Position numbers and translations under genes: made by a program. DNA of 64,000 nucleotides from positions 1-64,000 of IMG/VR virus record IMGVR_UViG_3300032308_002246. One strand, 5' to 3'. Positions 5,248 through 62,200 of this stretch are shown here, piece by piece; the stretch's first letter is position 1; each line of letters begins with the position of its first letter. The stretch comes from a virus. The notes under the pieces are model-generated. The model was not told where the DNA came from and searched no databases. It saw only the letters and a list, made by a program, of their open reading frames with translations.

Positions 5248-5370
5248 TCATCCGCCACCGTCATTAAAAATTCCCAAACCTTGCAGTCCCGCTTGGTTTA
5301 AACCGTTTCAAGATGTCGGTCGAAGTCGCAGTTCGCACGCACGCGCGCGGGCGGGGCTACAAAGCTTTTG
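5248..5370 (-). ncRNA. dispersed structured element, copy E2
   Basis: Second copy of the element. It has CATCCGCCACCGTCAT (5249), GCAGTCCCGC (5283) in the loop of an AAACC/GGTTT stem, and GCGGGGCT followed by AAAGCTTTTG (5351-5370). The outer ATTCGCTG upstream (near 5223) is also shared with copy E3. No ORF of note. Confidence 0.55.
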
Positions 5371-5612: not shown

Positions 5613-5727
5613 CATCCGACACCGTCATCAAATTGCTCGAATAGCGCCTGGTAGTCCCGCACGGTGTTATTTGGAAGACTTTGACCAGATGGCAGCGCGC
5701 AAGTGCGTGCGGGGCTGAATAGCTCCA
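5613..5727 (-). ncRNA. dispersed structured element, copy E3
   Basis: Third copy: CATCCGACACCGTCAT (5613), GTAGTCCCGC (5651) in a loop flanked by AGCGCC/GGTGTT (with wobble pairs), and GCGGGGCT then AATAGCT (5709-5725). Copies E2, E3 and E4 lie in tandem in the 900-base gene-free interval 5087-5971. Confidence 0.52.
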
Positions 5728-5864: not shown

Positions 5865-5970
5865 CATCCGCCGCCGTCGACGTGTTGCAGAAGAAAACAG
5901 CGCAACGCGGTCCCGACTGTTGTTTGAGGGCTTGCGACACCCCAGAAGGGTGGAGCGGGGCTAAATAGCT
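5865..5970 (-). ncRNA. dispersed structured element, copy E4
   Basis: Fourth copy: CATCCGCCGCCGTCGA (5865), GGTCCCGAC (5909) in the loop of an AACAG/CTGTT stem, and GCGGGGCT then AAATAGCTTC (5955-5972). It abuts the stop codon of the gene at 5972. Confidence 0.52.
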
Positions 5971-8384: not shown

Positions 8385-8443
8385 GCGTTGAACATTAGGG
8401 GAAATACTTGCGCCTTGCAACCCACAAGGGCTGTGACTTTTGT

Positions 8444-8566
8444 CATCCGCCACCGTCACTTTTTGTTTTCTTTCCTGGAGCCGGCCGTGCGAATTGCAGT
8501 CCCGACTGGGGTGCGTGAGGTTTCCCGGCAGAAGGGCAGGGGGAAGAAGAAGGCGGGGCTTACGAA
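8444..8566 (-). ncRNA. dispersed structured element, copy E5
   Basis: Fifth copy: CATCCGCCACCGTCAC (8444), GCAGTCCCGACTG (8496) and GGCGGGGCTTACG (8552). The element overlaps the last codons of the next gene upstream (8560). In all five copies the minus strand reads GGTGGCGGATGA or close to it at the 3' boundary. Confidence 0.52.
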
Positions 8567-8793
8567 CGCTGATGCAACTTGACGTTGCGACCATTGATGT
8601 CGTCATCCCAAAAAGAATGCACTAATTCCATCTCAACAGTGCTTGAAGTGTGCTTTTCTTTATTACTGCACGACGCTTGCATTGCAGGAACGCCAATAGT
8701 AACCTCATACCCACAGTTAGGGCAACGCCATAATTCCGTACGGGACTGTGGTTTACTTTTCTTGCGTGTCATAGTCATTTCATTTTGCATCAT
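8560..8793 (-). CDS. zinc-ribbon protein
   Basis: 77 aa from ATG 8793 with GGAG nearby. A basic N-terminus (TRKKSKPQSRTELWR) leads to CPNCGYEVTIGVPAMQASC, giving a CxxC pair and a distal cysteine followed by SNKEKH, probably a small zinc-binding domain. The C-terminal VEMELVHSFWDDDINGRN is acidic and aromatic. Leftmost gene before the hairpin array. Confidence 0.65.
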   Translation of the reverse strand: MMQNEMTMTRKKSKPQSRTELWRCPNCGYEVTIGVPAMQASCSNKEKHTSSTVEMELVHSFWDDDINGRNVKLHQRS

Positions 8794-9734
8794 TTTGCTC
8801 CATCCTGGCGAAAGAGATACTAATAGGCAGGACAACTCTTTTACTGCATGTCCTTTAGTCCCGCCAAATGGACTCTAATCACAATCCCCGCTCAATTGCA
8901 ACCTCGCTCTGGTTCCGCTTCGCAGCCCAGATTACGCCAGACTTCGTCGTGGCTTCACCTGGGTTCCTCGCTACACCAAGGCTCGGTCTTATCTCGCTTT
9001 TTCGACATTCACGCTCCACCTGCACCACCGCTACAAAACGCTTTCCGCTTCGCTACAAGCAGTTTTTCCGCTCAGGTGCTGGTTGCGCGATGAAATGTCT
9101 CAATACTCGAAACATTGATTGCCTGTAATTGCTTTTTAGTCCCGATGCCCCCATGACAACCTCCGTGCTCATTTGGTGACATCGCAAGGCTCCGCAGGCT
9201 CGTTTCGTATGCACTCAAATCCGCTGCCGACAAGCGGCGCGTCTTCAGTGCACCGATGCGTTATCACGCGTCGGCAAGTACTCCACTTGCCTTCTACGCC
9301 GTGCTCAGTAACCAATCGCACTACCAGCGACATTCATGAACTCACGACCGCCCGCTACAGTCCCCGGACTTCGTTCCTCGTCACGGGGAACTTCCGCTAT
9401 CGGTCGTTCCGTTCAATGAAGTGTCTTCCTTGCTTCATTTGATAATTAGTCCCGACTCTCATAACCAAGACCCGGCGATTTACTCATTAACGCATTCTCT
9501 CGGAAACACCGCTCGTGCTCCGCTCGTGTTCGCTTGAAGAGACTTCGGCGCTCCACGAAGCTACGTCACGAGCTCCGTTTCCTGCGCGAAATGCGCACGT
9601 TTATTAGTCCCGATTGATTATTGAATGACAATCCCCGCTTGTTCTTTTTCCCACAAACAGCCTCGCTACTCTCGCAATCCTGCCTCTCCGCCATAGCGAC
9701 GGACCACTTCAATCGCTTCAGTTTGTTTCCCGGG

Positions 9735-9786
9735 TTGGTGAGTTCTTCGAACCACCAAACTCCATATCGAATCCTGCTTCGATATG
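9735..9786. ncRNA. paired stem-loops in array unit d
   Basis: Two adjacent hairpins: TTGGTG/CACCAA around AGTTCTTCGAAC (9735-9758), then CATATCGAA/TTCGATATG (9763-9786), a perfect 9-bp stem. The same arrangement recurs in unit f at 10190-10235. Confidence 0.65.
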
Positions 9787-10189
9787 TAGTCAAGCCCGTA
9801 CAACAAACATCGCTCATTCGTGTTCCTAGCCATGGCTCCGATTCAGGAACTGCTCGCTCCGCAGGCTTCTTGTGTGAAAAGAGAAACATCGCTACTCACT
9901 AGTCCCGTAATAAGTAATAACACAACTCCGGTAGACGCACTTTCTGTTTCTATCCAACCGCCCGCTTCGCCCGTGCACGCAAGGGCATGCTGCCCACGCA
10001 CGCACGAGGCTACGCTTGGCTACTGGATAGCACCAGAAGAGTGCTCTTATTCAGACTCTTAAGCCCCGTAGATAATTGAATAACAATCACCGCTCGTGTT
10101 CCGAGTACTCCACATTCAACGCTACGTTCGCAATTCTGGCTCTCCGACATCACTGCGGACACTTCAGTCGTTTCAGTTTGCTTGTCGGG

Positions 10190-10235
10190 TTGGTGAGTTC
10201 TTCGAACCACCAAGCTCATACCAATGGATTGGTAT
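10190..10235. ncRNA. paired stem-loops in array unit f
   Basis: TTGGTG/CACCAA (10190-10213) is identical to unit d. The second stem is ATACCAAT/ATTGGTAT (10218-10235), different in sequence on both arms from CATATCGAA/TTCGATATG of unit d but equally paired. That is a compensatory change. Confidence 0.65.
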
Positions 10236-10555
10236 TTCGCCAAGCCCGAACGCAAACATCACTCCTTCGTGTACCTGGCGATGTCTCCAATCCAGAAAAT
10301 GCTTCACTACGCTTTTGAATGTTACGTACTCAGAAACTACATCGCTAAGTTGATAGTCCCGTAAAAAGTAACAAGACAACTACCGTTACTCTCCCTCACA
10401 CTGGTGATGCTCCGCTCGGTGCTCGGTTTCGGAGTAATCCGAATTCCTCACACCGAAACTACGCAGCACCCGTCGCTCGGTCGAGATAACTAACCACTAC
10501 TAATAAAACTTTATAGTCCCGTGCAGATTTATCTAACAACTTTGGCACCAGCGAA

Positions 10556-10622
10556 TTCCCACGGAGCGAGGCATCGAAATCACAAATGATTTCGTGCTCG
10601 CTGAGCGGGGGGCCGTGGGAAG
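10556..10622. ncRNA. long hairpin in array unit h
   Basis: TTCCCACGG (10556) pairs with CCGTGGGAA (10613), AGCGAG with CTCGCT, and ATCGAAATC with GATTTCG, giving one long interrupted hairpin that fills most of the unit. Confidence 0.65.
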
Positions 10623-11475
10623 TACGCTTCCTCATCCCGGATGACAGGTATAACTGTTTAGGTTTTTAGCCCCGTACGGACATTGAATGAATAGTTCCCG
10701 CTTATCCATATACGAAATCTTTACCGAGTTCAACGCTACGGATGTTTTCGTCCGCTGCGCAGCCTCAACAACCCTCCGCTTTTGAACCCGGTAACCGTCG
10801 ATTCATAGTTTCGCTGCGCTTCACTAGAATCGCCTAGATTTCTTATCTGTCTAAGCTGTTTGAAAGAAAACATTGATTCAAGCACTAGTTAGTCCCGAGA
10901 CTTCAATAGATGATTATCTTTGATTGCGACATCCCGGATATCCACCTCGTTAGAGCGCTACTCCTGCATTTCTCTGCTCCAGAAGTTCGGTCGCACGGTC
11001 GCTTCGCTTATGCTAGCGCCGAATTGCTGTCGCACTTCGTTGCTTCGCATTTCCCTACGCATACCGCACTCCTCCTTCTGGCTACGAGAAATGACAGTAT
11101 CCGCTTCCCTAACTCGTTGGACAATCCTGCCCGGTTGTTAGTCCCGTATAAAAATACTCACTCACCGCATACATTTTCTTTTCGACCTACGTTCGCTTTG
11201 CGTTTCCTTCGTACCTCGGAACAGCACGCTCACTCCGAGTCGAACGAAAATGCAATGCTTGCTCGCTCGCAAAAACTAGTCCCGTAAAGACAAACATAAA
11301 GCTTTACTTCGCCTCCTCGCTTGCCAGGCAGACGCCCGGCGTCGTTGTCTCATACTTCGCCAACGCACGCTGGGCGGCTGCTCTGGCTTCGTTCGGAATG
11401 CTCATTGTTGTTAGTTATTAGTCCCGTAATGATTTATCTAACAACTCCCGGCAGTGCCGTTTTTCATGGTTTATT

Positions 11476-11579
11476 AAAAAATACTCCCTCTCTTTTTTTC
11501 TTTTTACCGCTCCAAAAATCGTCGCTTTCGCTCGTGCCTCGCTCAAAAAAGACAAAAAAGAGCCTCTTCCGTATTTTTT
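11476..11579. ncRNA. long hairpin in array unit m
   Basis: AAAAAATAC pairs with GTATTTTTT at the outer ends (11476 and 11571), and the T-rich CTCTCTTTTTTTC pairs with the A-rich GACAAAAAAGAG. TACTCCCTC and CTTCCGTA flank the stem as in unit r. Confidence 0.6.
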
Positions 11580-12353
11580 AAAAACCAACAGTCGCTCCAC
11601 TCCTTTTCAAAACAGACACATGCCTAACCATGTGGTTATTAGTCCCGTTTTTTATTGTTGAATAAAAGTCCACGCCTACTCGCTTACCTGCGGATGCTTC
11701 CGGCTGTGTCCGCTCTCTTGAGCTACCACAAGCCTTCAGCAGCCGCCCGGTTGCGCTTCGTAAAGCTGTTTGTTGAACATTGCTTATAAAGCATTCTCTA
11801 TAGTCCCGCAAGCTTCGCTTGCTACAAACATCACAACTTTTGCTCGTACTTCTTTCCTCGCTCAGCGAACGCTCGAAATTCCAGAGTGCTCATTATTTCG
11901 CTCTTAAATCTTTTAAGTACACGCGCTCGTATCTCGCCTCGAAAGACTCACCGCTTGAATGGTCTCTAGTCCCGAAGTTTTACTATTTACATTCAAGCTT
12001 CTCGTCTTCCAACGCTCGCATTCTCACTTGTTCCCTTAAAATCTTTAATCGCAAAATAACTGCGCTTCTGGAACCTTCTCGCTCCCGCTCCGCTCAAAAA
12101 GAAAGTAACTTCGCTGTCTGCTCCCGGCAGTAATTAGTCCCGTGTAAATTTTCATCACAATTACCGCATTGCATACAGTCGAACTGTTGCTTCGCTGTTA
12201 GGGCTTTTGACGCTTCGCTTGCACGTGCGACGTGCACAACGCCCTAAACAGCTGCGCAGCATTCCGACTTCGTACGCAAATGCTTACCCGGTTTCTAGTC
12301 CCGAATATATTTAGATAAAAGTCCCCGGAGAAATTGCCTGCTCGTATTCCGCG

Positions 12354-12456
12354 AAAATACTCCCTCCATTTTTTCATTTCACGCTATCGCTCTCAGGCTT
12401 ACGGCCTTTGGCCTACAGCCATTCGGAAATAAAATAAATGGAACCTTCCGTATTCT
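12354..12456. ncRNA. long hairpin in array unit r
   Basis: GAAAATAC pairs with GTATTCTC and CCATTTTTTCATTTC pairs with GGAAATAAAATAAATGG. The layout (TACTCCCTC ... CTTCCGTA, then CAGTCGCT) matches unit m while the arm sequences differ. Confidence 0.6.
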
Positions 12457-12522
12457 CTTGGAATACCAGTCGCTGCGCTCCTTCTGCGCTCCAATTTACT
12501 CCTGGTAGTTGTTAGTCCCGTA

Positions 12523-12741
12523 TTAATTTTGTGGACTAAACGAACAAATCATCTTTCCATCTTTGAGCTCAATGACTTCACATCCAAGGTCATCAAGAAT
12601 CATCGCCGCAACATCTTTGTAGTCTGCAAGTTGTTGTGCAAGCTCTTTGTCCGATAGGCTCTCATCAAAAGCAATATCAAACAGCGAGTCGGCAATCGCA
12701 TTGGTTAACGAAAGCCTTATTTCAAAAGGGTTATTTGCCAT
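12523..12741 (-). CDS. hypothetical acidic protein
   Basis: 72 aa, helical and acidic (MANNPFEIRLSLTNAIADSL, then DESLSDKELAQQLADYKDVA), ending in a strand CEVIELKDGKMICSF. Transcribed divergently from SSB with 70 bases between them, which must hold both promoters; a TTGACA box lies at 12740. Its stop codon lies right after the last array boundary motif. Confidence 0.65.
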   Translation of the reverse strand: MANNPFEIRLSLTNAIADSLFDIAFDESLSDKELAQQLADYKDVAAMILDDLGCEVIELKDGKMICSFSPQN

Positions 12742-12811
12742 TGACAGAGCCTAGCATGGGTGATAAGCTGCTTTTGGCGATAAATCAACTGAACACAAGG
12801 AGAATACGAAC

Positions 12812-13291
12812 ATGTCATCAGCGCCAGTAACAATAACCGGAAACCTCACGGCGGACCCAGAAATCCGTTACTTTGACTCAGGAGCAGGAAAGCTTTCATT
12901 CTCTGTTGCGGTCAATAACTTCTGGACCGACGCAAAAGGTGAGAAGCAAGAAAAGACCTCTTACTTCAATGTCATCGCATGGCGCAATCTTGCAGAAGAT
13001 GCCGTGCGTGTTCTTGAAAAGGGAATTCGTGTAACAGTCACGGGTCGCCTTGAGCAAGAGACGTGGGACGACAAGGAATCAGGTAAGAAGCGCTCAGCTG
13101 TGAACATCCTCGCTGATGAAATTGGCGTATCTGTTCGCAACATTGAGACATTGCAGCGCAAGGCAAAGGCAGAGAATGCTTCTGGCAACCCTGTCAACGC
13201 TCGTCCTGCACAGAAAGCACCAGCACGAGCAGGCGCTCGTCCAGCTACAACCCGCAATGACTTTGATTCATTCGGGGAAGAGCCTTTCTGA
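12812..13291 (+). CDS. ssb: single-stranded DNA-binding protein
   Basis: 159 aa with the classic bacterial SSB layout. An OB-fold (VTITGNLTADPEIRYFDSGA through VTVTGRLEQETWDDKESGKK) covers residues 4-110, and a flexible Ala/Pro/Arg linker leads to an acidic tip DSFGEEPF that recruits partner proteins. AAGGAG lies before the ATG. It heads the plus-strand replication block beside the hairpin array and overlaps the methyltransferase downstream. Coats single-stranded DNA in phage replication. Confidence 0.95.
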   Translation: MSSAPVTITGNLTADPEIRYFDSGAGKLSFSVAVNNFWTDAKGEKQEKTSYFNVIAWRNLAEDAVRVLEKGIRVTVTGRLEQETWDDKESGKKRSAVNILADEIGVSVRNIETLQRKAKAENASGNPVNARPAQKAPARAGARPATTRNDFDSFGEEPF

Positions 13292-14679
13292 GCCTGACAT
13301 TTGGCAGCCTCTTCGCCGGAGTCGGCGGTTTCGACCTTGGGTTTGAAGCCGCCGACTGGCAATGCCGGTGGCAAGTTGAATGGGACCCTGCGTGCCAGCA
13401 AATACTTAAAAAGCATTGGCCTGACATCCCAAAATATCTTGATGTTAGAGATGTAAAAGGCAATGAAATAGAACCAGTTGACTGCATTAACTTTGGCAGC
13501 CCGTGCCAGGACCTATCCGTGGCCGGTGTCCGAAAAGGTCTCTCTGGTGAGCGCTCTGGTTTATTCCATGAAGCAATAAGAATTATCAAGGAGATGCGTG
13601 ATGCAACAAATGGACAATACCCACGACTCGCAATCTGGGAAAACGTTCCCGGAGCACTTACTTCCAACAAGGGTGCTGACTTTGGGGTCGTCCTCGATGA
13701 AATGGCCAAATCAGGGTGCGTGGCGCTTGACTGGGCAATCCTTGATGCTCAATACTACGGAATCGCCCAGCGACGGCGCCGCATCTTCGTGTGTGCTACA
13801 TACGATATTGGTGCCGCAGAGCGAAGTCCCCTCCCGTTACTACCTGTCCAAGAGGGCGTGCGAAGGCATTCTCAGAAGGGCCGACAGGAGAAACAAAAAG
13901 CTGCCGGAAAAGCTTCGTCAAGCACTGGAAGCAGTAGCGAACAGGGAGTCTTAGCATTTGAGAACAGTGGCTTTGCCAAATGGCAAGAAACAGACAAAGC
14001 TCTAACATTGCGAGCTCGTGACGCAAAAGGCCCTGGAACGATTGTCACAAACGAAGAAGTTTATTCTTTTGACACCCAATTCGGCTCAAATGCAAATGTG
14101 TTCACTGACCATTCACCAACACTCAAAGCTACACAGCAGTCACCAAGTGTTGCCTATGAGAACGATGATTCACCAATAGTGTTTCACCCGCATCGACAAG
14201 ATGGAGTTCGCTTACAAGGCGACACCATCAACACATTGACTGCTTTTATGGGAACCGGTGGACTAAACACACCAATGGTCGCACAAAACGAAGAACTCAA
14301 TGACGGAATAGCAATGACTCTCCGTAGTGGTGGTGACGGTGGAGTGCCATCAAGCAGGGGTGAAAACTTGGTCATTGATGCAATTGCTTACGATGAATAC
14401 AACGACAAGCTTGTTGAAGGTGGAATTCATCATGCAATTAGAGCTGGCACAAAACAGTCAACCGGGGTGTTGCAAAACATGGTGGTTAGACGCCTCTTGC
14501 CAAAAGAATGTGAGATTTTGATGGGATGGCCCGTGGACCACACCAGATGGCGTGCTGACGGAAAAGAACAGCCCGATACAGCGAGGTACAAGCAAACCGG
14601 AAACGGAGTAGCCGCACCTGTAGCTGAATGGCTTGGAAAAATATTCAAAGGACTATTGGATGATTCAGCAAGCAAGTAA
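13288..14679 (+). CDS. DNA cytosine-5 methyltransferase, probable CTG start
   Basis: 463 aa if started at CTG 13288, overlapping the SSB stop as CTGA; GGGGAAG lies eight bases upstream. All family motifs are present in order: FGSLFAGVGGFDLGF (SAM site), GSPCQDLS with the catalytic cysteine, ENVPGAL, QRRRRIF, a variable target-recognition region and RRLLPKECEILMGWP, then GNGVAAPVAEWLG. The first in-frame GTG (13519) would remove the SAM site and catalytic PCQ, so translation must begin upstream, where no ATG, GTG or TTG exists in frame. It methylates cytosine at C5 and probably protects phage DNA from host enzymes. Confidence 0.9.
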   Translation: MSLTFGSLFAGVGGFDLGFEAADWQCRWQVEWDPACQQILKKHWPDIPKYLDVRDVKGNEIEPVDCINFGSPCQDLSVAGVRKGLSGERSGLFHEAIRIIKEMRDATNGQYPRLAIWENVPGALTSNKGADFGVVLDEMAKSGCVALDWAILDAQYYGIAQRRRRIFVCATYDIGAAERSPLPLLPVQEGVRRHSQKGRQEKQKAAGKASSSTGSSSEQGVLAFENSGFAKWQETDKALTLRARDAKGPGTIVTNEEVYSFDTQFGSNANVFTDHSPTLKATQQSPSVAYENDDSPIVFHPHRQDGVRLQGDTINTLTAFMGTGGLNTPMVAQNEELNDGIAMTLRSGGDGGVPSSRGENLVIDAIAYDEYNDKLVEGGIHHAIRAGTKQSTGVLQNMVVRRLLPKECEILMGWPVDHTRWRADGKEQPDTARYKQTGNGVAAPVAEWLGKIFKGLLDDSASK

Positions 14680-33333: not shown

Positions 33334-34215
33334 ATGGACTTTGAATACGAAGAAATTTACGACTTTATATTCGTTTATAAAAAGCTACTCCCAAATCATC
33401 AAGAGATATATCGCTCACTCAGAGAGAGCAAGGATAGAAACTCTGATAAAAACTTTTATGCCAATTGGACACCTTGGTACACATTTGGCTTTATGGCTTT
33501 GATTCAAGAGGGCAACGGTGACCCAGAGATTTCAAACTTTGAAAGACAGTGTTACCGTGAAACAACACATGCCATCCATGAGGCAATGCGGCACTACCAG
33601 AGAGTAAACGGGATATCAGACCCAAACACGGGTAATGAGCTTCCACTTCTTACAATGCCTGGTCCATGTACATACAAAGAACACTCATCTGACGGCAATA
33701 GCAATGACCCAAAAGCCATGAGTTATCACGTTGACTTCATTCCGGAAACAGTAAATTTTCCAGGAGAAAAGTTCATGATTACATCATGCACCTACCCAAA
33801 TGATGACTACGAGGGTGGCGAGATAGAGTTTTGGGCTGATGGTAAGGCAATAAGGTACAAGCCAAAAGCTGGCGAAATACTCGTTTTCCCTTCTGGTAAC
33901 CCATTATTCCCCGGAGACGGTCGACCATACTTTCACTCGGTATGCGCAACAGGCAGTGGTGAAAAATATCTATTTAGAGCATTTGGCAAATACGAGGACC
34001 CAGTCACACCAGAATGGGAATCTGGTGTTGAAAAACACGGTGAAGAACAATGGAAAAAAATGGTTTGCGGAAATGATAAAAATGCAAAAGATGTTTATTC
34101 AAAAGCCGGACCTGCATTGATGATGTTTGATAAAGGCGTTCCTTCTATTTCACAAGAGCTATTCAAGGCATATAACAGCAATATGGCCGGCGAATACAAA
34201 GTCAGGGGTGCATGA
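33334..34215 (+). CDS. 2-oxoglutarate/Fe(II) oxygenase (P4H-like)
   Basis: 293 aa, ATG after AGGAGG. MSYHVDFIPETVNFPGEKFM gives HxD, then CTYPNDDYEGGEIEFWADGK (a typical double-stranded beta-helix turn), AGEILVFPSGNPLFPGDGRP and YFHSVCATG with the second histidine. The prolyl-4-hydroxylase/PiuC-like pattern is clear. Substrate unknown; in the block following RNR. Confidence 0.8.
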   Translation: MDFEYEEIYDFIFVYKKLLPNHQEIYRSLRESKDRNSDKNFYANWTPWYTFGFMALIQEGNGDPEISNFERQCYRETTHAIHEAMRHYQRVNGISDPNTGNELPLLTMPGPCTYKEHSSDGNSNDPKAMSYHVDFIPETVNFPGEKFMITSCTYPNDDYEGGEIEFWADGKAIRYKPKAGEILVFPSGNPLFPGDGRPYFHSVCATGSGEKYLFRAFGKYEDPVTPEWESGVEKHGEEQWKKMVCGNDKNAKDVYSKAGPALMMFDKGVPSISQELFKAYNSNMAGEYKVRGA

Positions 34216-35452: not shown

Positions 35453-36562
35453 ATGACAGTCACACGCGAAACATACAAAGAGTTTATTGGCCGAGTCAGC
35501 TATGGTGATATTGACCCGATTATCAACGCCCCAGAAACAGATTTTGAAGCCATTGACCACATAGTTAAGAACGATAGCGATGTGATATTCACTTGGGACT
35601 ATTCGTTGGTCCGGCCGCAACTCCGAAAACTCTATGAAAAAGCAAAGAATAATCAGTGGAATGGAGAAACCGCACTTGACTGGTCAACAGAAGTTGATGT
35701 TGAGCGTTCTGTTGTTGAGGACTATGCGAACTTTGGCTCAAGTCGTGAGATGTCAATTTATGACGGTAGCCCAGTTGAGAAGTGGGGAGATAAGGAATGG
35801 CTTGAATTTGGTGTCAACAGCAGACGCTGGTTGGTCTCACAGTTCATCCATGGCGAGCAAGCTGCTCTTATGTGTTCCGCAAAGCTCACACAAACGTGTC
35901 CGTGGTACGACGGGAAGCTGTATGCATCGACCCAGGTAATGGATGAAGCCAGACACGTAGAAGTGTTCGCAAAATACGCAAAAGAGAAGCTCGGTGGAAC
36001 TCTGCCATTCAACTGGCACATTCAAAGCCTTGTTGACGACACTATTGCAGATAACCGATGGGATATGACATACCTTGGAATGCAAATAATGGTTGAAGGC
36101 CTTGGCCTCGCTTCAATGGCTTATATGAGAGAACTAACCAATGAGCCACTACTCAAGCAGTTACTGAGAAATGTTATGGCTGACGAAGCACGTCATATCT
36201 CGTTTGGAATTATTTCGCTAAAAGAGATTTACGCAGAAATGAGTGACTCTGAAATCATGGAGCGCCAGCAATTTGCCTACGAAGCAAGCGTAAAACTTGG
36301 TGAGCGAATGCTTCAACAGGAAGTTTACGAGAAAATGGGAGTTAAGACGAAAGACATTGCTCCATACTTATTGAAAGACCCAGCACAAGCTTGGATTCGT
36401 AAAATGTTGGCCGCAAAGATAGTCCCAAATGTAAGCAAACTTGGGTTACTTGACCGAAATGGCGCTTGGCTGCGAAAAAAGTTTGAAGAAATGGGAACCA
36501 TAGAATTTGAAACACTTGGGGATTCAGAAGAAGAGTTTGCAGCTTTCGTACACAGCTACTAA
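35453..36562 (+). CDS. ferritin-like diiron protein
   Basis: 369 aa. Four helices carry the diiron ligands: FIHGEQAALM, QVMDEARHVEVF, QIMVEGLGLASMAY and ADEARHISFGIISL, with two ExxH pairs (EARH twice). The fold resembles aminobenzoate N-oxygenase/AurF-like and class I RNR beta proteins, but the tyrosyl-radical context is missing and there is no large subunit, so an oxygenase is likelier. Its stop overlaps the next start. Confidence 0.78.
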   Translation: MTVTRETYKEFIGRVSYGDIDPIINAPETDFEAIDHIVKNDSDVIFTWDYSLVRPQLRKLYEKAKNNQWNGETALDWSTEVDVERSVVEDYANFGSSREMSIYDGSPVEKWGDKEWLEFGVNSRRWLVSQFIHGEQAALMCSAKLTQTCPWYDGKLYASTQVMDEARHVEVFAKYAKEKLGGTLPFNWHIQSLVDDTIADNRWDMTYLGMQIMVEGLGLASMAYMRELTNEPLLKQLLRNVMADEARHISFGIISLKEIYAEMSDSEIMERQQFAYEASVKLGERMLQQEVYEKMGVKTKDIAPYLLKDPAQAWIRKMLAAKIVPNVSKLGLLDRNGAWLRKKFEEMGTIEFETLGDSEEEFAAFVHSY

Positions 36563-37211: not shown

Positions 37212-37284
<73 letters not shown>

Positions 37285-37363
37285 CTAAAAATGGAATAGA
37301 TTTATATTTCTCCTATATGTATTTTGTGTATTTTTTAGTGACTGTATTGTAGTTTTATGGGCT

Positions 37364-50216: not shown

Positions 50217-53200
50217 CTATCTTCCTCTATCAAAATTTGCAAAGTCAAAGAGTTTAGGGTCCATTACTTCCAGCTGCTCATTAATTGCTCTTCTAGCAAT
50301 CATGATTGGGTTCATTGGGTCATTGGTAGTGTCGTAAACAAATAGCTCATCAAAGAATGGGTCTAGGTTTGGCAACTGGAAGTAAAGCGTCCTGTTTATA
50401 GCTGGAGGAATCCAGTCAGGAACCATTCTTCCGGTTCTTTCAAATCTTTCTGCATTTCTTTCCAGAATTACATCATCTGGCGAGAAGAAGTAGTGAGCAA
50501 CAACTTTATATCCAGCATTTTTCCAGTTGATGAGGTCTCTATTGCCGTCATTAAACTGACCGCTTGTATCATAAGTCATATCTACGCCCTCTGAAGCAGC
50601 CCTCCTCATTAGTGAGGCGGCCAATGCACGAGACTCTGTGTGGGTAAGGTTGGCAGCATCAGGTAGACGCTTTTCAAACCAGTAACGTGCTTCAGGCATA
50701 ATCATTTTTGCATCATCTGGGTCAACAACTACTGCATCTTCGTATGAAGGTATTCCTGCAAAGTTTGTATTTCTAGCATTTGTTTTGCCGGTTCCAGAAG
50801 CTCCGCCAAGCACATAAACAGTTGGCTGTTCATTGCCACTATCAAACTCAGGTTTTGACACTCTTGCAATGCTGTTTTCTATGTAAGGAACCCAGAGGCC
50901 GTTGTATCTGTCATCAGAAACTCTGTTGCCATTAAGTCTATATTTTTGCGATGTAGAAATTGGGTCTGATGAATTCAGTTCATCAATTGAATATCCAGAC
51001 TGGTATCCAAGCAGGTCGAGGTCTTCTGCAAGAGACTTATCAACTATTGGTCGTGATGGTTTTGCAACCTTTCCAACAGGACCATCTGGATTCCAGGAGT
51101 CACTCTTGAAATCAACGCCCCAAGGCATCAAAGGATGCGGCATCTTGTCATTTGGCAAGAATCTTTCAGCATCTTTTTCAGCTCGTATTTTATTTATTCT
51201 TGCAATTATTCTCTGGTTTCTTATTCTTTGTGCTTTTGCAAGTATGTTCAGTCTCATTGCTAATGACATTCTCAGGTCGCTAAATGGGTCAGCAGAATTT
51301 GAGCCTTCATAATCCTTGCCCATTTTTGCTACAGCTCTTCTCAACCATTCTGCATGTCCAAATGCGATTGGGTACTTGCCTCTTGCTATATCTTCAAGTG
51401 GAACCCAATTTGCAGCTTTCGCATCTGAAGCAGCCGTTACATTTGAATCCCATGGAACAACAAACAAGCCGGCACCAACTCGTGCGCCCTTAACAAATCG
51501 TGGGTCCCAGTCTGGTGATGTAATAATTCCAAGTGGTTTGGCTTCAATTGATGACTCAAGGTCAATTCCAACCTCTTCCAAACCCTCTCTTGTAGCAGTG
51601 GTCATGTAGTCTTCGTTTCCGTCTCGCAATCCTCCAACAAGGGCTTTTGCGTTTGTAAACGGTCCACTCTTTCTGTCAATCATAAGCACTTCAGCTGAGC
51701 GCAAGTCGTTATTGTTCATTCTTATGATTACAGCATCTGAAGCTTGTGTCAATTTGTTTTTAGCAAGAGACCAGTTGTTAGTAGACCATGTAACATCCTC
51801 ATCATCTCCAGATGTGAGGTTTTTACTAATGTCCAGCGGTGAGTAGTTTGACTGTAGATAAGCCGCTCTCCTCAAGTTGTCCGAAGCTATGTCTCGAGGT
51901 CCGTAAACAGTTTCGTAGTACTCGTCCTGTGGTTGCATCTCAGGCATTCCATAGATACCTTCAAATGACTTAATCAAACCATCAAATGTCGACATACTTC
52001 CGGTTGGGGAATCATCGTTGAACAGTTCAATGTGCTTGTCGTTGTTGAATATTGATTTTGCTTTGGCTACCAGGTCTGTGTAATTCTTATAGTCTTTACC
52101 AGAGCGGTCAACCATTGCCTCTATGAGATTTGAACGATAGGCAATCGCCCCAACTATGTCCGATGGCTCTTCTCCTATTTCTCCGTAAATGAATGAAGAG
52201 TTGGTAGGGAGGATTGAGTCTGACGCAAAAGGGGATGCGCCTTCACGGAAGTCGTACGCTGGAATACTCCTGTTAGCCACACCAGATACATACAGGTCCA
52301 TCAACCTTTGTAGTTCTTGTACTTGCTCTGAGTCGGAAGCGGTGTTGTTCCTGATTGCTGGGTTTCTATCTCTGTTGAACCACAGGTTGGATGAGTTGTT
52401 TTCAGCTCTTAGTGCTTCAAGCTCTCTATCTTTTTGCAAAATTGCGTCCCTAGCAATACCCATTTTCCCAACTGGTCCACTCTCATTTGGGAAACGACCC
52501 ATTGAGAATCTCTTTAGAGTAGAAATGCTCTCAGCAAGAAGCTCTGCTTTGCTAGTTCCAAGAGATTGAAGAATATTGGAAAGACCATCATCTCGTCCGT
52601 CTTCTGTTTTTGCAATAGCTGCAATTAAATGCTCTGTGTCAATGATGTTTTCACCACGATTGAGTGCCTCACGAACTGAGTTAATCATTGTTTTTCTAGC
52701 ACCAAAACTTAATGAAATTACTTTTTCTGCGTTTTCATCTAGGTTTTGGGTTGTTGCGTTATTGACTGCATTACGCAAGTCGTTTACATCGATTCCAAGT
52801 CTGTTAAGAACTCTTCCGGCGATGCTTTGATTTACAGATTTCTTGCCAATGTTTTCTCTAGCAAGACCCAAAAGAAGATGCGGTATGGTTACCTCGCTGG
52901 ACTTGCCAAGTTTGGCTTCTTCGTGTGCGTGCACAACCGAAAGGATATTTGGCTTTGTGTATCTGTTTAGAGCCATTTTCCCTATAGGTCCATCATTAGG
53001 TGGAACAATTCTATTGTCACCAAGCTCTGATGATTCGGTAAAGAAGTTCTTTGGTATTTCATCCTCTGATGAATAGTATTCGTATGTTAAATCTTCATAT
53101 CCATTGTCATTCAACCAAGAATCAAATGTTTTTAGATTTTTAAACTTTCGTGGAGATGAAAATGTTGAATCTGGAGCCGCATCAATTACTTCACGCTTGT

Positions 53201-56200
53201 ATCGAGGCATCAAGGAGTTTCTTTGTGTTCTCTTGTCTTCTGCTTTTATGAACTGTGCAATTTTGTCAAAAGCATCACCAACACTAATTGTTGAATCAAA
53301 AAAGTTTAAGTATTCGCCAAATTTTTCAGCTATTGCAGACGATGCAAAATCTCGGATGAATGAAAAAGCCTGATTTTCGTCGTTTGTATTCAACGCATCA
53401 ATAACTTTCATTGTGAGACCATCAATTGTGTCAGCTATTTCTTCTGCACCAATTTCCTGCGCAAAACCATTCAAAGCACCAAGAATTTCTATGGCTCTTA
53501 TTGAGTCATTGCGATTTGCTCTTAGTTGCTCTATTTGTTCAAAAACTGAATCCATTGGCGTCATTACTTCATTTAATGCACCCTGCGTTCTTCTTAGATT
53601 ATTTATTGCAGTTGTATTTTTTTGTGATTCTACGTATCTCTGATATGTTGCTCTGGCGTCTTCATCAAGAGAATTTATTTTTTCTTCTGTGAAAGCATTA
53701 ATTTTTTCAAATCTTTCTGCTTGTCGCGGCGTAAGCATTGAAGCTATATCACCTGACATCACAGGGTATGCATCTGAGGAATTAGACCAATTTACCCATG
53801 GGAAGTATGAGGACATTGTCATATTTTCTGACACTCGTGTTTGATTTTCTTTAAGAGCATCAACTTCCGACCGCAAGAAACCGCTTAACTGAGAATAAGC
53901 CTTTGCAAGAGCAAGTTCATCTTTATTTAGAGATACTCCATCCGAAAGAGTAATTCCGAAAAGCTGTCTTAGCATTGCCGAAGCATTTTCGTCCGGGGAA
54001 TCAGAAAGAGATTCAGTAAGAGCTTTTACATACTCAGAGAACTCGGCTCCTGAATCCATTGCAAGAATATCTTTTGTTGTAATTGGACTATCTGTAGATA
54101 TCTGGCCGTTTTCGTCCTGCCACCAATAAACATCTGGAGATGTCTCGTATTGTTCATACAGAGAATCAACTTCTGCTTCAGTCCCTGGTCTGGCAAACCA
54201 TTTAACATTTTTGTTATATGGTCTTGAGTCTTCAAATCCACTGTAAACAATGTCTGGGCCATATATTGTGAACTTGCCATCAGCTGCTCTTCTAGGAGCA
54301 ACAGAAAGCATGTCAAAAGAGTCATCTGACATCTTTGAGTTAGCAGAAGAAAACTCTATTGCGTCTGCAAAAAGAGCACCCATCGTGTCAGCGAGGTCTT
54401 TTACAGAGTCATACCATCTTTCGGTTTGCTCAGGATTGAGCTGTACAAATTTATCGCCTTTTTCTCTAGCTATATCCTGAAGAACAAATGGTGAACCAAC
54501 TTCATCGTATATTGATTTGAATATTCTGTCCAAATACCACCCAAGCATTTGGTCGTCTGCAACCGTTCTGCCCATGAAGTCAGAAATTGGATACATTGCG
54601 CGGTTGACATCGTTTACCGCGTCAAGCATCATGGAGTGAACGGCAGACATTACCTGTGCGGCTTTGAATTCACGTGTTGTGGCTGTTCTCATCCACTCTT
54701 TTATTCTATTTCTTGAATCCTCGTTTAGTCCAATTCGTTCAAGCTCTGAGTCTCTCGACATCAAACGAACTGCGTCATTAATCCAGTTTGAGTCTCCAGG
54801 TACAAAACCAGCAGTGGTTCTGCCAAGAGCTCTGTAAATCATCATTATGTCTTTAGCAATTGGACTATCAAGCGATGTAATTGATTCGGCATCAATAAAG
54901 CCTGATTCATACTCTATTGCGTCATCTTCGCTTTCAGAATATCCATCTACTCCAAAAGCTTCTGTTATTTCTTGCTCCAAAAGCATTTGGTTATATGATT
55001 CACTCATTATTTTTCGCATTGACCTAATTAGTCCAGGGAATTGACCCTCTTGAATCATGTCAGATACGGATTTGGTTTTGTCATTTTCCAACTCGGGGAA
55101 TACGCTTGGCGCATCCTCATCTGGACCACCTGCAGCTTCGTAAAGCTGTCCACCGAAAGCATGGTATTTGAGCAAATCACCAAGACCGGAGAACCATTTA
55201 ACAAGTGCTTCTTGGTCTTTTGGTTCTCCATCAGAGAACTTACGTGCTTCAACTGGTCCGTAGAACGGGTTTCCAACTATAACTGGCGGTGAATCTGGGA
55301 GGAAAACAGTAACTTCTGGATTGTCTGAGTCCCATTCTGGTGTTGGGCCATTTGACTGAGAAACATCACTTGGTATTCTGCGACTAGCCATTGCCCCTGC
55401 AGGACCAGAAGCCATTGCCTCATATGCATTTCTAAACGATTGTCTTGGCTGTGCGTTTTCTTCCGATGGCTGAATTATTGAGTTCAAAGCAGCCGCGCCT
55501 ATTCCATACTTGCGCATCGCCTGTCTCTTTGACATTCCTGATGCAATGTCATCAACAATTGCTTTTCTGTTTTTCGCAATCCATTCTTGTGAGCCAACAG
55601 AAGATGGAGCTACACCTGACTTCCTAAGCTCGTGAAGCAGATTTCTTACAGTATTTGGGTTAAATCCAGTAGTGTCAACAATATCTGATTCGTTATATCC
55701 TGCCTTAGCAAAGGATGCAACAACATCTCTTCTTGACTCCGGCATTATTGAAGACATAAACTTTGATGCTTCATCAATGCTTGGGTTCTTTTTCCCAACC
55801 TGCTTGTAGAATTCTTCGAGCTTGCCATTTCTTGCAAGGTCTCTAGCAGTTGCCATTTTAGGGTTAATCGTTCGGCCAAGAGCGCTTGATATTTCAGAAT
55901 CAGTTTGTCCAGATTCAATTGATTCAAATACTGGTTTCATTTCCGACCAGTTGCCAGCAATCCAGAGCAGGTCTCCGTCTGGTCCAACTTCTTGTTCTGA
56001 AGCAGCGTAAGCAGGCCATATATTTTCGGGATTTTTACCTATTGAATGGGCGAGCTTCCTAGCTGCATTTACAGAAAGATTAAACTTTCCACTTCTAAGC
56101 TTCTTTGCTGTAGCCGGTGATGTATTTAAAAATACAGCAAAGTTTTCATCGCTTATATTTTGTGAATTTGGAATAGCCTCAATAAATTTTGATGTTGGCA

Positions 56201-59200
56201 AGAATCCGGTTCTTATTAGGTCTGAATCCTTTACACCTCTCCAAGCAAATATTGGGCTCACGCCATTTTCATCGCTTGAATTTGTTCCATAGATGTTTTT
56301 ATCCAAGTCTGCTTTTTTCAAAGCTGCAGCCATAGCTCCATAAGGACCATCCATTGACCCAGATGACTCTATGTCTTCTGCGTTTTGTCGCAAAGCAAAG
56401 TTTCTGGCTTGTTCACCCATTCTCTGCTTGGCTTCATCTGAATTGAGCCAATCTTGTCTTTCACCGTAAGTCATGTAATCCCAGTCATTGGGGAGAGCAG
56501 AGTAGTTCTGGGGGGCTCGCCGTGCTGGTCTTGAAGGCCTATCCCCATCGTTAACTAAAGCCATGTATATGGACTTGGCCGAATCCTGATGAATCCCTGT
56601 TAGGCCAGCGGCGACACGAGGACTCATGTTTGGAAAATCAGCGAACAACCTCATAGCCCGGGCCATTCTTTCCTTAACCGAGCCGAGAGTTTCGTCGTTA
56701 AGTGCAACCAGCTTATAAGCAGAACCCATTCCTCTTGTTTTTGTTATTTCGGGGAATTCTTCATTCAATATTGAATAAGCTGAAGCAAGGGTGTTTGTTG
56801 GTATTAGCTCGTTAAATCTTTGTTGCATTTTTGCATATGATTTTCTAAACTTGTCAGCGTTTTTATAGGCGTTTACTGCATTTGTAAGTCTTGTCTTATC
56901 AAAACCATATTTATCAGCAACTTGACCCAGAGTTAATTTTTGGACATCGTATTTAACACTTGCCAAAAGCGACTCTCTAATCGCAGCAATTGAGAATATT
57001 TCCGTGACTGGAATGTTATTTTTTCTAGCCAAAGAGTATACATCTGCACCGTTATCTATTTCATTGAGAATCTGTGATGTTCTTGATGGCATGCCTTCAG
57101 AAGAATATGTAGCATTAATTAGATTTCTAATATCGTTTTCTTTTTCGGATGCAATCATCTTGCCGACTGAACGATTGTATTCATTCTGTAATACATTTTT
57201 GAGCGTTGTTGGCATGTCTGTTAGTTCATTTGAAAGAGTTCTAACCGCTCCAACAGGAGAAGACTGAATATTCTGTCTAAACGATTCAATTCTTTGTCTT
57301 GCTGTAACATCCCTATTGTCAACTAGGTCAATAGTTTGTATTCCATTAACAGAACGCAATTGTGACAACATCACACTGCTTAATGCTTTTTCTTTTTTGG
57401 TCATTGATATATTAAATGGAGTATAAAGATTTGAAGAATTATCAGCATATTCGTCAAAACCATTTATTGCTCCAGAATCGCCGAACAGGTAGCCAATTTT
57501 TTTCATATTCCCAACAGGGCCTGAGCCGATTACTCCGTCTCCATTGTTGTCGGCAAGATTCTTCATTGATTCGTTTACCGCTCTTTGAGCCATTAGTACA
57601 TTCATGTACTGAGCTGAGTCGGCAACCATATCCTTAAGTTCTGCGGCCCTGCTCATCAACTCGTTCTTTTGCTCAATAATGTCCTGTCTTGCACGCGAGC
57701 TAGCTTCTGCTTTGGTAGAAAATGATTGTATTTCAGCTTGCATTTGCAAAATCTGTGGACCATATTCGGAGTCCCACTGTTGTATCGAAATTAAATAATC
57801 TCTTGGGTTTATTGCTCCTGCACGAAGTTTTTCTTTTTGGCCAACGATAAACATTTCTCTAGCTTTTATTATTGATGAAGTTGCGCTAACTCTTGATAGA
57901 ATTTGTGCACGTATTCTTTCTTGATACTGGCGTGATGTTCTTTCTTCTGCATCGTCAAGTTCATTTATCGCATTGTCAATACTGTAAATTTCGCTAATCA
58001 AATCACCTGAGTTTTGTGTAATTTCAAGAACTTTTGCTAAAGCTTTTACCCTTGATTCTGCCTGTGAACGTGCGTTGGCTGCATTTCTTGCAGCTATCAG
58101 AACTGAATCAAGATTGTCTATTTGGTCATTCTCGCGTAGAGCTGTTTTTATGCCGGCAATAACTGCATCTGGGTAATAGCCATCACGCAAACCAATTTCT
58201 GATTCATCAAGCATTAAACCGCTTGTCATGTCCTTAAGCCATCCATCTCGGAGTGCTTTGCTTGATTTTGCTTTTGAGCGAGCTATTTTTTTCTGTTTAT
58301 CAAGCTCCATTTTCTCAGTAGCGCTAAGTCTTCTTTGCGAAGAGAATGAGCTCATTCCATATCTAGCTCCATTGCCGCTTGAACGATAACGCTGAGGGAC
58401 CACTGGAACTCTTATTGACTCAGCTGCCTTTATTGATTCTTCAAGGTCTTCGCCTTCAAGCCAACCACTTTGGTTCTGCACATAAATCAAAACCTTGTCC
58501 ATGTCAACTAGGCCTGGCTCATCGTTAATTGAACGGAGAAGAGCTTCAGCCTCTGTTCCGTATCTCCCATTTTCGTGGAACCAATCTCTTGTGAAGTAGT
58601 TGTTATTACCACCTATAAAAGACTCGTATCTGTCGTTAAGAGCAGAAGCTATTGGGTGTCTGTCTGGGTTGAAGTTTGATGGACGGAGCGACTCATCCTC
58701 ATCCATTTCTGGGTTATATACTCCAGAATCTTGTTCGTTGGACTCGTCTGCGCCAATGCCCTGTACGGAAACAGCGTCGTATCCGGTTAATCTCTGTGGT
58801 GCGTAAATGAGTTGACCATTTTTGAGTTTTCTGAACTCAGTGTTTTCAAAAGACTCATCGACTAGTCCATTTATTTCATTTACTAGTGTTTCTTCAATCT
58901 GTGGGTCAATTGCAATTTCATCAGGGCTTGTGTAGAAAAATCCATCAGGTGTATTAATTCCACGAACACCAAGTGCATCAATTGCGGCTTGCTCTATGTA
59001 CCCAAACTCATTTTTAGCCTGCTCATCATGCTTTCTGTGAGGATTAAGCGCAGCCTCTAGGAGTGCTTGTGCTTTTTGAGTTAATCCAGATGGCTTTCTT
59101 GCCATTGACCCAACTGGGGAATCGGAGAATTCATCATCGTCCCAGTCGTCTGGAGCATCAGCAAAGTCATCTTCTGGAGATATTCTACCAGCTCTGATAT

Positions 59201-62200
59201 CTCGTATTCTTCTTTGGTTTGCTTCAAACTCTTCTTCTGCTTTGCGAACTGTCTCAATTTCTTCAGGTGACATGTTTCTGTACTGGCTCAACAAGTCCGA
59301 AACTGCATCGTCCATCTTGTCACCAGCATCGCTTACTATCGCAGAAATTTCATCATCAATTCTTTGGATTCTTCTGCGTTGTACAGCCTTAGGGGTTTTT
59401 TCTGAATTTAGTTTTCTCAAAGCCTCGGTGTACTCACCTTTCCCAAGCAATGACCTACCACCGGACAGGAAGTAGTCAACAAGGGAGACATATTCTCGTC
59501 TATCTTCTGGTGTCAGGTTTTCAAGTGAAGATACTCCAAAAGATTCTGAAATTGCGTCCGAGATGAGCATATTCACATCATCGGCAGAATATCCTTCTGA
59601 GTCAACAAAACCACCCAAACCATAAATTGATTTCTTGAATTTCTCGCCAAGCCTATTCAGAGCTTGCTGTGTTCTTTCGGCTGCAGCTTTTTGGCTCCTC
59701 TTTCTTATCAATGAGCCTGGACCAGTTCCACCGATTCTATAGAGACTTGGGAATATGTATTTAGCCCAAAGCTTTCTAATCTGTTCGTCGGTTAGTGAAT
59801 CTATTATTTCTTTTGCAGACTCAGAAGTGCCATCGTATTTTGAGATTAGTTCGGATTGTTTTTTCTCAAGTGCACTTTGTGTTGTGCCTGCTGGAGTTGA
59901 TGCAACATAAACCTCTCTGGTTCCTATTCCATCAACTGGGTTTGATTCTACAAACCGCTGTAGTTGATTCTTGACTTTTTCAGGAGATTCTTCGGAAAGC
60001 GCTATTTCAGCAAATAATCTATTTACTCTATCCTTCTTGTCGTTTTCCGAAGCCTTCAACAAAGCTGATGTTTCATTGTTCGCAGAGAACAATGGCGCTG
60101 CTGCATTGAACCATAGTCTTGAGATTGGCTGAGTAGAAGATGCGTCCTCAACATATCTTGAAAGAGATTCGTAGGCGTCATCTTCTTCAATTTCGCTGTT
60201 CTGTATCTTTCTAAGCAATTCATTTGCACCGTCAGTGAGTGTGTCGGCAACTTCACCTACATATTGCCTAATCTTGTTTCTTCCTTCCTCAGTTTGTGAA
60301 AGCTTTGCTATAGCTACAGAAGTTTGTCTTATTAGCGAAGCTCTTTGCATTTGAAGGTTTTGATTATCAAATGAATTCTTTGTGTAATCTGAAACACTGA
60401 ATGATTTTCTTAAAGCATCAAGTTGTTGCTCGGACATTGAGTCAACTAGCTCTTTTGCAGAAGATGGACTTCCGTCAAATGCTTCTATTAGAATGTCTTG
60501 ACTCATTTGCTCAGGCGTTTTAATCAAATCACGTGAGCTTGGACTTGCCGGCACTGTTACTTTTGGAAGCGATTCAACAATTCTAAGTATTTCTTGTCTT
60601 GTTTCATCTTTGTCACCCAATTCTCCACCAAGCATTGAAACAAGAGTTTCTCTGTCTAGTTGGTCTTCAACCTGTGCAACAACAGCCATCTCTTTTGGTG
60701 AAAGTATTTCATTTAAGTCTGAATCAAGCATTTCAGGTGGCCATGATTCAGGATAGCGAGGAGTAATTTCATCTCCTCTAGCAGCTTTTGACAACGCAGT
60801 TCTTATTCTTGATTCAAAGTTCTTTACTGATTCTTCATTTGAAGCATCAGGGAATTTTGAAGATATTTCTTCAAACATTTCCATAACCGCTCTGTCGCCG
60901 AGCGATTTGATATGAAAAGAAAGACTGCCGGATTGTTTTTCTGCAATAGGCCGATATGCATTTGTAAGGTCAAATGGGCCAAATCTTACCCAGTCTTCTT
61001 CAACTATGTTCTCAAGTTGCTGGCGGGCCCACTGTGCTCTTCTGAATGCGTTTTCTTGCTCTGGGGTCATGTCTTTTGCTCTTTGTATTGAGCGTAGAGT
61101 TCTGGCAGCTTCAAATTCGTCTCGCAGATTTTCGCTTGGCCTGCCTGTATTGGAGCTCATACTTCCAACTGCGCTGGTTTCAATGAACTGCGAGCCACCA
61201 GATTCTGCTGTGTAGTTGTTTACAGTGTTAATAACTTCGTCAACGGCATCATTGCTCCAAATCTCATAGCCATTTTCTTTGGTGCTAAGCAGTTCTTTTA
61301 TTTCTCCAAATTTAAGAACTCTTGTTCCATCGTTAAGCATTGAAACAATTTCTACTGCTTCTGACACCTCATTATCTGTTATTCCATCAAGCTTTGATGC
61401 TTCTGGCTTAAGGCTCTTAAGAACTTCGGGGAAGTTTTCTCGCAGGAATTTACCGATTTGTTCTCTGTTTAATGTTTCTGGCAATGCCAGTTCTTCGGCG
61501 TTTTGATTAAAAACATTAGAAAGAGATTCAAGTGAATGGCCTCTATTGGCAATTGACGGCTGAATTCTTCTGAAGAAGTCATTTGCAAGACCCTTCATTG
61601 TTGCTGGGAACTCAATTTCCGCAGTTTCTCCACTTTCTGTTTCTAGAGGGTATTGACTCTTGGGCACCTTCCCGCCTGTTGAACGTGATACAAAATCATA
61701 AATGTCACGAACACGTTTTCTTAATTCATTTCTCATTTTCGTGTCATCGTTATCTAGACCAAATCTAACTCCAACTTCATTACCGTTAGATGAACTTATG
61801 GTCATGTATGGATTTCTAATCCACGATTGATAAACTGTCTCAAATGTTTCAGGGTTAAGTTCTGGATGAATCGCCCCAAGTATTTGTTTCATAGAATTTG
61901 CATCTGCGTTTATATCGCTTGGCGTGCCGGCAAATTTAACCAATTTGTCGCCATGAAAGGTTACGAAAAATGGATGTTTTTCAAGTTTGGTTGGATACAA
62001 GCCAATTTTTTCCAGTAATCCGGAATCGTTTAGTTCTTTAACTTTTTGGAAGCTCGAAGATATTCCAAAGCTAGACGGAAGCCCTACATAGCCCTTTCCT
62101 AATTTCCTTTTGTTTGCTGTTTGCAAATATTTAAGTCTTGAATTTTCATCTTTCCAATAGAATGCGAGATTGTTCCCGTCAAACATTGTGAGACTTGGAT

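Follow-up and report, generated by a model that had tools for sequence, protein, structure and literature searches.

The sequence analysed in this study (the window) comprised 64,000 nucleotides (nt), bases 1-64000 of the 173,962-base virus record IMGVR_UViG_3300032308_002246, and contained a gene-free array of hairpin units located between two minus-strand genes. The host of the virus is probably an actinobacterium, because the closest relatives of the major head protein were found in Gordonia and Brevibacterium phages (~48% identity) and WhiB-like and sigma-factor-like genes were present. The gene upstream of the array encodes a 70-amino-acid (aa) protein with homologues in loci L172 and L173 (52% identity) and in L207, which has no array (31%). 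The gene downstream encodes a conserved 77-aa zinc-ribbon protein, and its homologue in L173 (33-34% identity) occupies the same place. The switch from minus-strand to plus-strand genes occurs within 70 bp following the 70-aa gene and leads into the gene for the single-stranded DNA-binding protein (SSB). The initial annotation, made from the letters of the window, had placed the array by SSB at this switch; the proximity to SSB was borne out, while the intervening conserved 70-aa gene had been missed. The positions of the features are shown in Table 1.

The motif AGYCCCG was found at 19 sites in the array tract, all on the plus strand and 0 on the minus strand (17 TAGTCCCG, 1 TAGCCCCG, and 1 AAGCCCCG), against a mean of 0.37 and a maximum of 3 in shuffled sequence. 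Units delimited by the motif measured 138-310 nt, and the constant part between units was only 7-8 nt. These values agree with the 19 plus-strand copies at intervals of 140-310 bases reported initially, while the statement that ACAA(C/T)..CCG follows the motif in most units was overstated (good fit in ~8 of 18). The boundary is better read on the minus strand, as CGGGRCT-A-NNN-A. The longest open run in the tract (125 codons) was within the range of shuffled sequence, open frames occurred at chance level, and length differences among orthologous units were not multiples of three; the tract is therefore non-coding, as had been claimed, and protein coding or alternative frames were rejected. Clustered regularly interspaced short palindromic repeats (CRISPR), which the initial annotation had already set aside together with an ordinary integron, were rejected by test, since near-identical repeats of ~20-45 nt and uniform spacers are required and the array has neither.

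Table 1. Positions of the array, its units, and other features in the window
Feature	Position	Strand	Basis or remark
Hairpin array, 18 units between 19 CGGGRCT copies (AGYCCCG on the plus strand)	8856-12520	minus	Motif positions and conserved minus-strand folding
First minus-strand unit boundary, CGGGACTA	12513-12520	minus	9 nt past the stop codon of the upstream gene
Last minus-strand unit boundary, CGGGACTA	8856-8863	minus	~60 nt ahead of the start of the zinc-ribbon gene
Unit E, paralogue of H, best-supported structure	9605-9899	minus	E/H alignment (A3)
Unit H, paralogue of E	10061-10353	minus	79% identity to E over 191 nt; structure as E
Unit O, paralogue of S of relatives	10890-11138	minus	O/S alignment (A5)
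Unit Y, two conserved 3x3 GNA/GNA internal loops	12135-12295	minus	Whole-helix compensatory replacement between relatives
70-aa gene upstream of array	12529-12741 (including stop codon)	minus	Homologues beside the array in all close relatives
77-aa zinc-ribbon gene downstream of array	8560-8793	minus	Conserved
SSB gene	12812-13291	plus	PHROG 44, E = 2.6e-34
Inverted repeat nearest the array, AGCCCCG ... CGGGACTGC ... TGACGGTGGCGGATGA	8440-8560	minus	Intergenic, motif in common with the array
Elements like start-associated sequences (SAS) and extended SAS (ESAS)	1609-1745, 2629-2690, 5249-5360, 5613-5720, 5865-5965, 8444-8560	minus	Inverted repeat and start-codon block
DNA methyltransferase gene	13270-14679	plus	Immediately follows SSB
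4588-aa protein	50217-63983	minus	Clp_N, NUDIX, and zeta-toxin-like matches
AurF-like oxygenase match	35453-36562		Slightly under the Pfam cut-off
2OG-Fe(II) oxygenase match	33334-34215
tRNA genes	1-619 and 37212-37285	four minus, one plus	Thr, Ser, Asn, Arg (minus); Met (plus)

Conservation and turnover of the units

SSB-based searches yielded 59 viral loci. In close relatives (SSB identity about 87-100%; 95-100% in the list), the array occupied the same place with 23-28 complete units, and the orthologous units, recovered from several metagenomes, shared their order. The fullest array consisted of units A to Z plus a second U, and the array of the window lacked units A, G, J, K, L, S, T and the second U. 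Unit G was shifted to the second position in L181 and in an independent contig behind L247. At comparable junctions, every change of neighbour coincided with CGGGACT: whole units were gained, lost, or moved, always in one orientation, with clean losses between the 7-bp direct repeats that flank the hairpins. Paralogous units were also found (E/H, O/S, and U/U' and Z). In the more distant L172 and L173 (72% SSB identity), an array lay between homologues of both flanking genes; at the nucleotide level, no similarity between it and the array of the window could be detected.

No nucleotide match to the array was obtained among 50,697 records of known phages. A first pattern scan of viral contigs returned mostly single chance matches and also yielded L111, another copy of the array; a stricter boundary pattern gave no matches. 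Bacterial genomes produced just distant SSBs, none of them like the phage locus. The search of relatives for motif-spaced arrays suggested in the initial annotation was thus productive, and neither a lack of structural conservation nor an assembly artefact, named there as grounds for abandoning the proposal, was found. An artefact or a degenerate functionless tract, for which only the absence of genes speaks, is highly improbable, as the unit order is common to independent contigs of different samples and the units show covariation; an assembly artefact was ruled out on the former ground, and the array is confirmed as real and conserved.

The precise insertion, loss, and movement of whole units at CGGGACT in a single orientation, together with the paralogous units, could also suggest selfish or recombining cassettes, integron-like or like miniature inverted-repeat transposable elements, that exchange at CGGGACT and bring the phage no advantage. 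Integron attC arrays resemble the array in their one-orientation modules, structure kept over sequence, one folding strand, and gain or loss of modules at a short core, but the modules of the array are gene-free, and its hairpins are longer and constitute the module itself. The attC R boxes (RYYYAAC/GTTRRRY) occurred at chance level, with 3 and 6 on the plus strand against shuffled means of 2.4 and 5.1, and one spaced pair. Tyrosine recombinase (PF00589), the family of the integron integrase, was unmatched in the 174-kb record, which is possibly incomplete, while the control was matched in 14/14 genomes; reverse transcriptase (PF00078, RVT_1) was likewise unmatched in the record. An integron array was rejected on the boxes and the recombinase, and a retron or other reverse-transcribed DNA on the reverse transcriptase. 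In both lineages, moreover, the array was restricted to a single locus flanked by the same pair of genes, its within-unit pairing is under selection, and clean loss would also be produced by slippage across direct repeats or by selection that keeps hairpins whole. Selfish cassettes are accordingly considered unlikely.

Folding strand and loop types

The long inverted repeats described earlier inside the units were present and conserved with compensatory changes, and structure prediction, the check proposed for them, gave conserved folds. The strand originally taken to fold was the plus strand; the results pointed to the other. The consensus energy was better on the minus strand in 21 of 22 unit family alignments (-75.7 against -30.5 kcal/mol on the plus strand for unit L), and the unit alignments contained 719 G-U cells on the minus strand versus 299 on the plus strand. 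Where independent predictions for the two strands gave the same pairs (710 pairs), G-U on the minus strand occupied 54 columns and A-C 14 (3.9:1), while G-U versus A-C tests over all predicted pairs were noisy (1.7:1 and 2.2:1). Folding of a plus-strand RNA was rejected, its energies being weaker and its wobbles far fewer.

The E/H alignment contained 71 pairs with 98.4% of cells paired and 23 pairs with two-sided changes, and the O/S alignment contained 70 pairs with 97.1% of cells paired and 20 pairs with two-sided changes. The covariation score was 0.336 for E/H (0.170 shuffled) and 0.296 for O/S (0.161 shuffled), each reached by 0/500 shuffles, in alignments that contain paralogues and whose scores can be raised by sequence relatedness. 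The slid controls were unambiguous, with pairing dropping to 33-45% in both alignments. Alignment energies, wobble asymmetry, and covariation show that the minus strand is the folding strand, and pairing within the units is under selection.

The folds carried an unusual set of loops. GNA/GNA made up 107 of 158 of the 3x3 internal loops on the minus strand versus 2 of 25 in Markov shuffles, and across orthologues the G differed in 12%, the middle base in 32%, and the A in 11%, against a background of 18%, so that the middle base is free to vary and the two outer positions are conserved. Of the terminal triloops, 40/68 were GNA, closed by a C-G pair 24 times and by G-C twice. Tetraloops were rarely GNRA (2/80, below chance), more often GNNA (19/80), and never UNCG (0/80). 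Escherichia coli rRNA in the same pipeline gave the reverse, with GNRA 15/29, UNCG 2/29, GNA triloops 1/10, and GNA/GNA 1/8. The array of L173 had 12/23 GNA triloops (1.8 expected), 16 GNA/GNA loops (0.6 expected), and GNRA 0/10. According to the group that discovered them, DNA mini-hairpins are extraordinarily stable when a GNA or GNNA loop sits on two or more G-C pairs (PMC4686876). The loop chemistry is thus suggestive of single-stranded DNA (ssDNA) rather than structured RNA.

Single-stranded DNA or RNA

The initial annotation had offered structured RNAs or folded ssDNA. Both readings survive, with the loop chemistry on the side of ssDNA; the strand and the boundary had been misread. The reading favoured here, at a probability of roughly 0.4, is that the array is a set of modular cassettes that act as folded minus-strand single strands, most probably ssDNA, read at CGGGACT by a protein in the replication region. 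We infer all three of its elements, DNA rather than RNA, the protein that reads CGGGACT, and the role in replication. The preference for ssDNA is mainly due to the loop signature, which matches the DNA mini-hairpin loops and recurs in the unrelated array of L173. The position of the array beside SSB was also counted for this reading, as was the presence of 34 of the 35 AGYCCCG sites of the genome in the first 12.5 kb.

Each cassette would form a long imperfect hairpin, its helix continuous through GNA/GNA mismatch loops and capped by compact GNA or GNNA loops, and would be delimited by CGGGACTANNNARY as the recognition sequence. Replication or strand displacement beside SSB would expose the minus strand, and the exposed cassettes would fold and exclude SSB. 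On the folded array, 19-29 CGGGACT copies could then be offered to a primase, initiator, or organiser of phage or host origin, which would make the array a multi-copy, single-strand platform on which that protein lands. Clean loss of a unit is what slippage classically produces when short direct repeats lie on either side of a hairpin, and the clean losses observed would fit DNA folding because hairpins in ssDNA would let the polymerase slip between the 7-bp direct repeats. Stated more fully, and held slightly more tentatively, a double-stranded DNA phage may keep a modular ssDNA nanostructure array, with dozens of cassettes, DNA-specific loops, whole-unit exchange, and a programmable landing platform at the replication region.

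Nearly as likely, and ranked just behind the ssDNA cassettes, is that the array yields several clustered structured non-coding RNAs, or a single structured RNA of 3.7-6 kb, expressed from a minus-strand operon of the 70-aa gene, the array, and the zinc-ribbon gene. CGGGACU would then provide single-stranded linkers or sites for processing or protein binding, and the RNA could be a scaffold, sponge, or decoy in early infection. Several points weigh against ssDNA or speak for RNA. Because the array lies between two co-directional minus-strand genes, transcription through it is probable and a function as RNA possible, its folding strand being also the likely transcribed strand; the array is purine-rich on the coding-sense strand, as are the genes of this genome. 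Covariation runs through G-U pairs, and the 10% G-U content and the preference for G-U over A-C suit RNA equally, though covarying base pairs with minus-strand G-U wobble would be given by ssDNA too. GNA/GNA 3x3 loops are stable in RNA as well. The loop counts are from minimum-energy predictions with RNA parameters; DNA parameters keep the GNA/GNA excess (37/53). Triloop positions, unlike the internal loops, had no overall pattern of GNA conservation across orthologues. For the ssDNA cassettes, neither a protein that recognises them nor a nick site or origin was found. The GC-skew minimum at 12.5-13 kb was dropped as proof of an origin; it is not independent evidence because skew tracks gene direction in the sampled stretches.

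Other results disfavour RNA. GNRA below chance, the absence of UNCG, and enrichment of DNA-type GNA and GNNA loops are the reverse of the rRNA result; no minus-strand sigma-70-like promoter match was found in 8400-12900, and terminator-like sites were no more than chance. With Rfam 15 covariance models at the gathering score, just the five tRNAs matched in the window, with no match in the array. GOLLD, ROOL, and OLE are large structured non-coding RNAs, two of which were found in phages or lake samples (PMC12286853). The array is also large, structured, and non-coding, but consists of many unlike modules, has no Rfam match, and nearly lacks GNRA.

The nearest working analogy to the proposed ssDNA cassettes is provided by bacteriophage N4, which has a double-stranded DNA genome and whose virion-RNA-polymerase promoters function as ssDNA hairpins; for a promoter to be used, SSB must not disrupt its hairpin (PMC4496689). 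The proposed ssDNA hairpins and compact loops are alike in both, but the N4 promoters are short and in few copies, whereas the array has at least 18 hairpins of 100-300 nt. A Pfam search recognised no virion or T7-like RNA polymerase; the positive control was also unmatched, so absence is not shown. The 4588-aa protein was rejected as a virion RNA polymerase, as its matches, close to the C-terminus, were to other families (Table 1); it is possibly a 'polyvalent' protein.

The array matches no known repeat system, and no described family of ORF-free hairpin modules like it was found in the open-access literature and databases covered. Cells very rarely contain folded ssDNA whose tertiary-like architecture is selected and conserved, the usual examples being integron attC sites, N4 promoters, and replication origins. 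If the ssDNA reading is correct, the array of 18-28 modules, maintained with compensatory mutation and built anew in a sister lineage out of unrelated sequence, would represent a novel type of genomic element and a natural DNA hairpin library. If the array instead acts as RNA, few modular non-coding RNAs of phages would match it in size, and its loop code would be unusual.

The motif outside the array and other observations

Only 1 of the 35 AGYCCCG sites of the 174-kb record lay beyond the first 12.5 kb, in the remaining 161 kb, while a reversed control pattern was found 11 times over the record. Beyond the first 12.5 kb the genome appears to avoid the motif, and the array is the densest part of the motif-bearing segment. 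The common 7-mer would offer a handle for the partner protein. In the first 8.6 kb of the window, minus-strand genes were preceded by AGCCCCGC ... GCGGGACTGC ... TGACGGTGGCGGATGA, with an ATG inside the last block that often starts a very short reading frame. These SAS/ESAS-like elements combine an AGCCCCG ... CGGGACT inverted repeat with TGACGGTGGCGGATGA at the start codon and leader-like short frames. SAS/ESAS of actinobacteriophages consist of a conserved sequence at the start codon and imperfect inverted repeats, outside structural genes (PMC3203893, PMC7302621); the layout is alike and the sequences are different. The array differs from both: its copies are of a single arm of the repeat, minus-strand CGGGRCT, all facing the same way and separated by large hairpins, and they lack a partner arm and a start codon.

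In relatives without an array (~60% SSB identity), 45-49 AGYCCCG sites per record were found, mostly as inverted pairs 17-27 nt apart, and in the two records with complete match lists they were limited to one segment of ~28 kb. These inverted repeats, the same 7-mer forming both arms of the intergenic repeats upstream of minus-strand genes in the window, and its depletion elsewhere would suit a duplex operator or organiser array. CGGGACT would be the half-site of the ESAS-like intergenic inverted repeats, the array would be a high-copy binding domain by which a regulator is titrated or the early region organised, and hairpins would matter only as extruded cruciforms. This explanation is improbable, more so than selfish cassettes, as it leaves the strand-specific GNA loops, the G-U asymmetry, and the conserved 60-70 pairs per unit unexplained.

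Strand composition was followed in G001 (20-59 kb), G002 (30-40 kb), G003 (1-12.5 kb), and L195. A+C jumped from 0.75 to ~0.3 about 1 kb ahead of the first motif cluster in the records behind L192, L191, and L195, and a second switch was seen at the last AGYCCCG site (0.59 to 0.24 in G003). The shifts fade over a few kb and affect genes of both directions. The switches give the appearance of an origin-like point on either side of the motif segment.

Among the remaining genes, the DNA methyltransferase gene was kept with SSB in the array lineages. The two oxygenase matches were located near a ribonucleotide reductase gene and are possible auxiliary metabolic genes, judging from these matches.
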